NCBI RefSeq assembly: GCF_007671725.1
Contig: NZ_VCNM01000002.1
Coordinates: forward strand, 620,001 to 684,000
Source: Halorubrum depositum
GTDB taxonomy: Archaea; Halobacteriota; Halobacteria; Halobacteriales; Haloferacaceae
Length of the DNA: 64,000 nt
Direction of reading: 5' to 3'
Part shown: piece by piece, positions 29,929 through 46,480 of the stretch
How the letters are laid out: every line of letters starts with the position of its first letter
How positions within the stretch are numbered: the stretch's first letter is position 1
The notes under the pieces: model-generated
Database searches by the model: none
The model's input: the letters and a program-made list of their open reading frames with translations, nothing else
Told to the model about the DNA's origin: nothing
Translations under genes and position numbers: made by a program

Positions 29929-30206
29929 GAACACCTCCAAAGCCCCAGCCGGGAGGCGGGCGCACGCTCGCTGCGCGCTTCAGTCGCTCGCGTTGCTCGC
30001 TCCCTCCAGTGCTTACGTCACCTGCGCCCGCCTCCCGGCTGCCCCTTTGAGTCCCACCCCGCACAGCAACCGCACCTCACGCCTCCCCAGCCTCGTCGAC
30101 CGGCCTCCGCTTCGCTCGGGCCGGCCGACTCCCTCGCGCGTGCTCCTCGCAGCCTCCGGGCGCTCGGAGGCACGCGCCACCGCGCCACTAATCGTGGTTA
30201 TAAACC
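29929..30206 (-). ncRNA. Candidate structured RNA, dispersed element copy 1
   Basis: On the plus strand the element starts with GAACACC, then CCAAAGCCCCAGCC, then a perfect 18-bp inverted repeat (29947-29964 with 30023-30040), then GCCCCTTTGAGTCCC, then CCTCCCCAGCCTCGTCG (30082-30098), a stem 30095-30105/30119-30129 with one mismatch, TCCCTCGCGC, and a third stem 30152-30158/30165-30171. The same order of blocks and different but compensating stem sequences occur in copy 2 at 46.14-46.48 kb. A palindromic TATA, GGTTTATAACC on the minus strand (30196-30206), points to minus-strand transcription. It overlaps no protein gene and fills the hpt-pfpI gap. Confidence 0.6.
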
Positions 30207-45737: not shown

Positions 45738-46052
45738 GGACGGACTAGGTCGGGCGGTTAGGCCCCGCTCGTCACCCGTGAGGTAGTCTTCAGCGGGGAC
45801 CGAACAGCGGGCGCGTCCGGTCAGACCGGCGCGGGCCCCGAGAGCCAACGTGGAAGCCTCGTCCGCCGGGGACAGCGATCCGTGGCGCCCGCTCGCAGGA
45901 GCGGTCCGTCGCGGTTCGTCGGCGACACCGGGTCAGGCGCGGAAGCGAGCAGCCCATCGCCGAACGCCCGTCGCTCGTCGGGTCGCGGGGTGGAGAAGGC
46001 AACCGGGATACCCCGCGCCGGAACGCCGGGCCACCCCGCCTGTCCGCCATTC
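45738..46052 (+). ncRNA. ffs: Signal recognition particle RNA (archaeal 7S RNA)
   Basis: The conserved helix-8 domain is clear: GGGTCAGGCGCGGAAGCGAGCAGCCCATCGC, i.e. GGUCAGGNCNGGAAGNGAGCAGCC. Upstream, TAGGTCGGGCGGTTAGGCCCCGC and CCCGTGAGGTAGTCTTCAGCGGGG resemble the haloarchaeal 7S 5' end and Alu domain, and GAGAAGGCAACC... closes helix 6. The RNA forms the SRP with SRP19 and SRP54. A CTTATG box about 27 bp upstream is a TATA candidate; T4 at 46061-46064 may end it. Ends are set by pairing of GACGGAC-like 5' with GTCCGCC-like 3' sequence, uncertain by some bases. Confidence 0.92.
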
Positions 46053-46139
46053 ATACGCGTTTTAAACCGGTGAGCGTGAGCGATACTCGATTGGTGACAC
46101 CACCATTCGTTTAAAAGGGATTGACTCGGGATCGACGGT

Positions 46140-46480
46140 GAACACCGCCAAAGCCCCAGCCGCGAGAACTCGATGGGCTCGCTGCGGTCCTCGTCGCTCA
46201 CGTCGTTCGCTCCTGTGGTCCTTGCGTCGTCATCAGAACGCTGTGCGTTCTGATTGGCTCACGAGAGCTCTGCTCTCGTGAACGCCCGTCTTCGTCCTCG
46301 CGGCTGCCCCTTTGAGTCCCTCCCGACCGCGACCGCACCACAGCCTCACACCTCCCCAGCCTCGTCGCTGGCGGCATCAGCCGCCAGCGACTCCCTCGCG
46401 CCGTCGGTTCGCGGCCCTACGGGCCGCTCACCGGGACGCGCCGGATCGGTCGTAGGTCTCGATCGGCCGTTTTATAAATA
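46140..46480 (-). ncRNA. Candidate structured RNA, dispersed element copy 2
   Basis: Blocks in the same order as copy 1: GAACACC (46140), CCAAAGCCCCAGCC, a variable stem 46158-46166/46297-46305, GCCCCTTTGAGTCCC (46306-46320), CCTCCCCAGCCTCGTCG (46351-46367), a perfect 11-bp hairpin 46364-46374/46381-46391, TCCCTCGCGC, and a 7-bp hairpin 46411-46417/46421-46427. The stem sequences differ from copy 1 but still pair. The large loop holds two extra perfect 9-bp hairpins (46232-46254 and 46260-46280). ATTTATAAAA on the minus strand (46470-46479) gives a promoter next to the GCS2-type gene's stop. It lies 88 bp after the SRP RNA. Confidence 0.6.

Follow-up and report, generated by a model that had tools for sequence, protein, structure and literature searches.

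The gap between hpt and the gene for a PfpI-like protein in Halorubrum depositum holds one copy of a dispersed structured element, of which about 67 copies, counted by joint anchors and lying in both orientations, are present in this genome (3.18 Mb). On balance, we consider the element to be probably a class-wide family of chromosomal intergenic structured repeats that folds on its minus strand and resembles the ERIC/BIME-like repeats, i.e., a transcribed repeat. ERIC-like repeats are transcribed intergenic repeats of bacteria. The initial annotation of this DNA had proposed a "probable undescribed small RNA"; the fold, the minus strand and the absence of an Rfam family held up, but an ordinary small RNA did not. 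Given the copy number in this genome, up to 187 block hits per congener, the presence/absence differences between species and a cassette-like exchange of hairpins, "small RNA" is too restrictive a label.

Architecture of the element

Within the window (the whole 64,000-nt stretch of DNA analyzed here), just two copies score with the covariance model and none is linked to TnpB, although a TnpB-like gene is present. The relevant features are as follows.

29929..30206, minus strand: copy 1 of the dispersed element, in the gap that separates hpt from the PfpI-like gene (minus being the folded strand by the wobble pattern)
29929..29950, plus strand: conserved block 1, GAACACCTCCAAAGCCCCAGCC
29947..30040, unstranded: P1 domain, an outer 18-bp stem (29947-29964/30023-30040) around the inner motif CTCGCTGCG ... 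GTGCTTACGTC
30041..30055, plus strand: conserved block 3, GCCCCTTTGAGTCCC (GCCCCTTTCAGTCCC in other families of the class)
30082..30135, unstranded: block 4 CCTCCCCAGCCTCGTCG, hairpin P2 (arms 30096-30105/30119-30128) and block TCCCTCGC
30136..30178, unstranded: hairpin P3 (GCGCGTGC-TCC / GGA-GCACGCGC, with an apical stem)
30196..30206, minus strand: TATA-like GGTTTATAACC, inward-facing, from which a start is predicted about 26 nt downstream, close to where P3 has its base (spacing rule from PMC8707807)
33684-34967, plus strand: IS1341-type TnpB-like gene, 427 aa, with no element copy at its ends
45738-46049, plus strand: archaeal SRP RNA (RF01857; Rfam search, 174 bits), about 90 bp upstream of copy 2
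46110..46478, minus strand: copy 2, about 90 bp downstream of the SRP RNA gene (77.7 bits with the covariance model)

The blocks between hpt and the PfpI-like gene lie where they had initially been placed, and the proposed perfect stem is exact, AGCCGGGAGGCGGGCGCA (29947-29964) being the reverse complement of TGCGCCCGCCTCCCGGCT (30023-30040) over 18 bp with no mismatch. The single mismatch ascribed to stem 2 (P2) is an A.C on the plus strand, equivalent to a G.U on the minus strand, and the annotated TATA-like motif GGTTATAAACC is indeed present at 30196-30206. In addition, CAAAG at 29938-29942 pairs with CTTTG at 30045-30049 over an internal loop that is rich in C (in G on the minus strand). 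The fold of copy 1 beats 200 of 200 dinucleotide shuffles on either strand (z of -3.8 and -4.0), and a covariance model of the P1 core assigns it 97 bits. The second copy proposed at 46.14-46.48 kb is real; its P1 holds a nested double-hairpin insert, and inward TATA-like motifs are located at either end (46110-46116 and 46471-46478). An element near the SRP RNA gene is kept at about the same place in most congeners examined.

As a separate observation, nested double-hairpin modules of 50-80 nt occupy recurrent positions in the element (46207-46282 in the window; loci L021, L052, L054, L060, L063, L065 and L072), for example AGCGAGAGR..CTCTGGCAGCCGGCGGC..GCCGCCGGCGAC and ATCAGAACGC..GCGTTCTGATTGGCTCACGAGAGC..GCTCTCGTGAACG. 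Their presence varies between orthologous copies of the element, and they apparently constitute a second, smaller family of mobile or exchangeable hairpins.

Copy number and genomic distribution

A BLAST search with the 278 bp of copy 1 retrieved full-length copies genome-wide at 74-85% identity, and block 3, searched with up to two mismatches, gave 69 genome-wide hits vs. 3 for the reversed block used as a control. The element was found in all 52 genomes of the genus, with a maximum of 187 block hits in one congener; carriers identified by name comprise Halorubrum species, Haloparvum sedimenti and one Halobacteriales MAG. Outside the genus, block copy numbers are uneven: single species have many copies and their congeners close to none. 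Low counts may, however, hide copies with a variant block, as the block count and covariance-model result for one genome (G074) illustrate.

Copies are intergenic and occur in every gene arrangement, with a slight scarcity in divergent gaps in one 400-kb region (1 divergent, 8 convergent and 8 tandem gaps with the element, vs. a background of 77, 77 and 154), as judged with a simple gene caller. With the same caller few copies overlap called genes, and a protein-coding explanation was rejected on this ground. In 65 of 106 copies from three sets, the gene flanking the element on its 5' side points towards it, which is a weak bias, and the element was accordingly dismissed as a marker of gene ends. 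An orientation bias along replichores, hinted at by the contigs of H. depositum, was also discarded, as forward hits are evenly spread in a single-contig genome (G021). Repeat copies are located at contig ends in the H. depositum assembly (start of contig C3, end of C2), and the repeat probably breaks assemblies of these genomes.

Beyond the genus, the conserved unit is the P1 domain, organized as AAAGCCCC - stem - CTCGCTGCG - hairpin - GTGCTTRCGTCG - stem - GCCCCTTTSAGTCCC, which was found in 15 of 15 further genera tested with entirely different stems. A covariance model (R1) built from 36 P1 modules, applied with strict filters and 12 candidates scored per genome, matches 48 of 53 Halobacteria genomes, comprising about eight families, and none of the ~240 other genomes of the phylum outside Halobacteria. 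The inner motif CTCGCTGCG ... GTGCTTACGTC is conserved class-wide; unpaired positions of P1 are kept across the class while the stems change completely. In several families two P1 domains are arranged head to head. At one locus of another genus (L200 in G178), the P2-P3 half is present without P1, indicating that the element is modular.

Covariation and the folded strand

Covariation, initially deduced from two copies, was overwhelmingly upheld by the comparison of 127 distinct modules with shuffled arms. Within the genus, the first 12 pairs of P1 are Watson-Crick in 92% of cells (71% with shuffled arms, maximum 74%); in other genera the value is 88% (43% with shuffled arms, maximum 54%; 45 distinct arms in 48 modules); and one class of P2 shows 96% pairing vs. 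71% with shuffled arms. These counts are alignment-free, arm being set against arm from the block edges, an approach that failed to register a second P2 class. For 36 diverse modules across genera, RNAalifold predicted 20 pairs, 13 of them with two-sided changes. Together with the pairing of the arms, this bears out the proposed selection on a fold: further covarying copies do exist in other genomes, and the element displays the covarying helices of a structured RNA. Besides the neighboring archaeal SRP RNA, a search of Rfam (Rfam 15) returned no family at the gathering threshold and, at a loose threshold, chance-level miRNA hits only, in line with the view that the element is undescribed there.

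The strand that folds was addressed through wobble pairs, since an A.C on the plus strand is a G.U on the minus strand. We have counted mismatches flanked by Watson-Crick pairs in well-registered helices, by register-free and by column-based procedures. In the genus helices P1, P3 and the block pairing P0, the plus strand holds A.C over G.T in a ratio of 70:9 cells, or 39:8 by distinct contexts (p about 5e-6), the contexts being not wholly independent because alleles spread between copies. For P1 of other genera the ratio is 11:3, again in favor of G.U on the minus strand. As a positive control, the SRP RNA of the same genomes gave 160 G.U vs. 28 A.C on its own strand, so that the element matches it in strand bias; wobbles make up about 13% there and a lower share, about 3%, in the element. 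Mutational strand asymmetry was rejected as the source of the bias, as flanking DNA oriented by the element is unbiased (448 A/G vs. 485 C/T differences). An earlier and cruder count by free arm alignment gave A.C:G.T ratios of 37:47 for P1 in the genus, 16:43 for P1 in other genera and 20:20 for P3, with no consistent asymmetry; that alignment mis-registers inner helices, and the register-free and column counts came after its result. The one-strand excess of G-U over A-C typical of structured RNAs is, thus, seen on the minus strand, with the cruder count inconsistent. Based on the strand-biased wobble, the SRP RNA control and the unbiased flanks, there is good but not final evidence that the folded strand is the minus strand, as the initial annotation had it, in the form of either RNA or single-stranded DNA.

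These observations bear on an improbable reading in which the element would consist of unselected, untranscribed DNA palindromes that quasipalindrome template switching and ectopic gene conversion maintain, the conserved blocks serving as recombination anchors or nucleoid-protein sites. Such a scenario would fit the intergenic location of copies in all gene arrangements, the frequent head-to-head arrangements and nested hairpin inserts, and the exchange of whole hairpins between copies (see below); against it stand wobbles that are strand-biased next to unbiased flanks, and the class-wide retention of unpaired inner motifs of P1 between stems that change completely.

Putative promoters and element ends

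The inward minus-strand TATA at the 3' end recurs in 23 of 58 copies of the H. depositum genome vs. 4 of 908 random flank windows used as a control, and at the 5' end a TATA-like hexamer lies exactly 37 nt upstream of CCAAAG (block 1) in 27 of 37 copies. At the haloarchaeal spacing of about 26 nt between TATA box and start (PMC8707807), plus-strand transcription would begin close to GAACACC and minus-strand transcription around the base of P3. Copies of the Halorubrum type, therefore, likely carry promoters of their own. Among P1 domains of other genera, 0 of 50 have a TATA-like motif ahead at that spacing, which assigns the promoters to the genus form rather than to the class-wide core. The minus-strand TATA singled out in the initial annotation is, thus, a recurrent feature, but one of the genus.

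The putative promoter at 30196-30206 and its counterparts in 23 of 58 copies, along with the minus-strand wobble, are what a conventional trans-acting small RNA gene would offer, duplicated and with a minus-strand promoter at each copy. We regard this explanation as highly improbable: TATA boxes are lacking in about half of the copies and in other genera, and each genome holds about 67 to 187 divergent copies with swapped stems.

Units of 54-57 bp are often repeated in tandem at the 5' edge of the element. Such tandem edges were noted at L099, L224 and L227; the first of these, upstream of hpt, has up to about 5 units, and at L224 a locus-specific flank is duplicated along with the terminal block, possibly a vestige of the process that gives rise to copies.

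Site stability, hairpin exchange and mobility

Comparison of the H. depositum genome with that of a congener (G035) revealed about ten syntenic sites with a copy in both and about six at which the two genomes disagree. No clear target duplication was seen at the latter, where edges are blurred since the intergenic sequence has been replaced. Copies next to the SRP RNA gene and hpt occupy the identical site in the same orientation in many species. Orthologous copies are mosaics, with P1 identical but P2 and P3 replaced at one site, the reverse at another, and both arms of a hairpin replaced together. The simplest reading of these alignments is that copies exchange whole hairpins through the conserved blocks. 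At the hpt-PfpI site of G035 (L082), just a 3' remnant of the element is left, and most of it is replaced by what reads as a serine O-acetyltransferase-like frame and unrelated DNA.

No Y1/IS200 transposase gene (PF01797) scored above threshold in the H. depositum genome (99.98% complete) despite its about 67 copies, and Y1 gene counts do not track copy number across genomes; an IS200/Y1 transposase was rejected as the driver on both counts. A phage-wide BLAST of phage records did not find the element, and viral contigs gave nothing beyond chance 15-mer matches (at most 24 bits). Two plasmid records match the element in part, and with mere pieces there a viral or plasmid origin was likewise rejected. 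A comparison of IS ends (non-exhaustive) revealed no known transposon end that would explain the palindromes, a possibility raised at the outset.

We tentatively retain, as a possible though rather unlikely alternative, a non-autonomous transposable element of the PATE/REPIN type, whose transposase, supplied in trans, would read single-stranded DNA hairpins and bind the conserved blocks. Single-stranded DNA would likewise yield a strand-biased wobble; PATEs are already a known class of haloarchaeal elements (PMC3119063); the inverted P1 pairs of other families resemble REPIN doublets; and the uneven, lineage-specific copy numbers and the about six sites differing in presence between two congeners, with no clear target duplication, point the same way. 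Nevertheless, most sites are common to different species, and the stems vary among copies, which is not what recent descendants of a single master would show. The findings on Y1 genes also argue against it, as does the absence of viral and phage copies, with pieces on two plasmids, for PATEs have been reported on a halovirus and a plasmid (PMC10544981).

Discussion

In the model that we favor, that of a structured and transcribed chromosomal repeat, P1 is the class-wide core, to which the genus form adds P2, P3 and flanking inward TATA boxes, with the core in other families often present as two head-to-head P1 domains. The selected molecule would be the folded minus strand, most likely as RNA, produced either from the 3' TATA box of the element or by read-through from a neighboring gene. 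Copies persist at the same sites over the long term, come and go at some sites, and swap whole hairpins, most simply through recombination within the conserved blocks. As to function, an ERIC/BIME-like transcribed repeat is the most likely reading, in which the element would give structured ends to transcripts or work as a non-coding RNA present in many copies. The copies and their distribution, the covariation, the minus-strand wobble bias, the mosaic exchange, the stable sites and the placement of the TATA boxes are shown by the sequences; the RNA nature of the folded strand, the activity of the TATA boxes, the way in which copies spread and the role of the RNA are inferred. Points against the model are that the wobble bias would also suit single-stranded DNA of the minus strand, that wobbles have a lower share than in SRP RNA, and that TATA boxes are missing from about half of the copies and from other genera. 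A bolder and quite unlikely version envisages an ancient, near-class-universal RNA family with tens to hundreds of promoter-bearing copies per chromosome and cassette hairpins, a SINE-like prokaryotic counterpart that would serve the host chromosome and not plasmids or viruses.

By copy number and length, the element makes up about 0.6% of the H. depositum genome and probably more than 1% in a congener. It is a sizeable non-coding part of Halorubrum chromosomes, absent from Rfam and from the open-access papers searched (by text and by direct sequence search). If transcribed, it would represent a very abundant structured RNA repeat present throughout an archaeal class, and one could then test whether prokaryotes keep high-copy repeats for their RNA or for their mobility. 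The combination of conserved blocks with exchangeable hairpins also offers a clean system for studies of gene conversion in polyploid archaea.

Comparison with known systems

The closest haloarchaeal likeness is with the PATE/SMR repeats of Haloquadratum walsbyi (PMC3119063), which are also non-coding, high-copy and palindromic, lack clear target duplications and have small hairpin elements nested inside. However, PATEs are tied to IS605-type transposon ends and occur on a virus and a plasmid, whereas the genome of H. depositum has no Y1 gene and no viral copies are known from our searches; the near-terminal palindromes related to IS605 and mobilized by its transposase were not found in a non-exhaustive comparison with IS605 ends. 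The element differs further in its class-wide inner motifs, its freely changing covarying stems and its TATA motifs at a fixed spacing.

With bacterial REP/BIME/REPIN and ERIC-like repeats, the element shares a high number of intergenic palindromic copies (tens to hundreds in a genome), the occurrence of head-to-head doublets and a conserved structure; unlike them, it is about 250 nt long, multi-domain (P1-P2-P3) and exclusively archaeal, its stems vary among the copies of one genome, and the RAYT (i.e., Y1 transposase) gene characteristic of REPIN/RAYT systems is missing from the H. depositum genome. PATEs are characterized by a lack of inverted terminal repeats and of target duplications, and MITEs by the inverted termini of a known transposon along with a target-site duplication. 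Copies of the Halorubrum type have no inverted termini, the inverted P1 pairs of other families do have inverted ends, and the six empty sites, with their blurred edges, show no clear duplication. By the results on Y1 genes, phages, viral contigs and plasmids, the feature tested here as defining for PATEs or REPINs is lacking, although the element may spread in a like fashion.

Halovirus HF2 carries promoter-bearing intergenic repeats of 56-58 bp with TATA boxes (PMC8707807), a length close to that of the 54-57 bp units repeated at the 5' edge of our element; the HF2 repeats are viral and devoid of large hairpins, and the sequence comparison, made by phage-wide BLAST alone, gave no match. Overall, covarying helices and strand-biased wobble are what the element has in common with the structured RNAs of Rfam, with archaeal SRP RNA as the reference.
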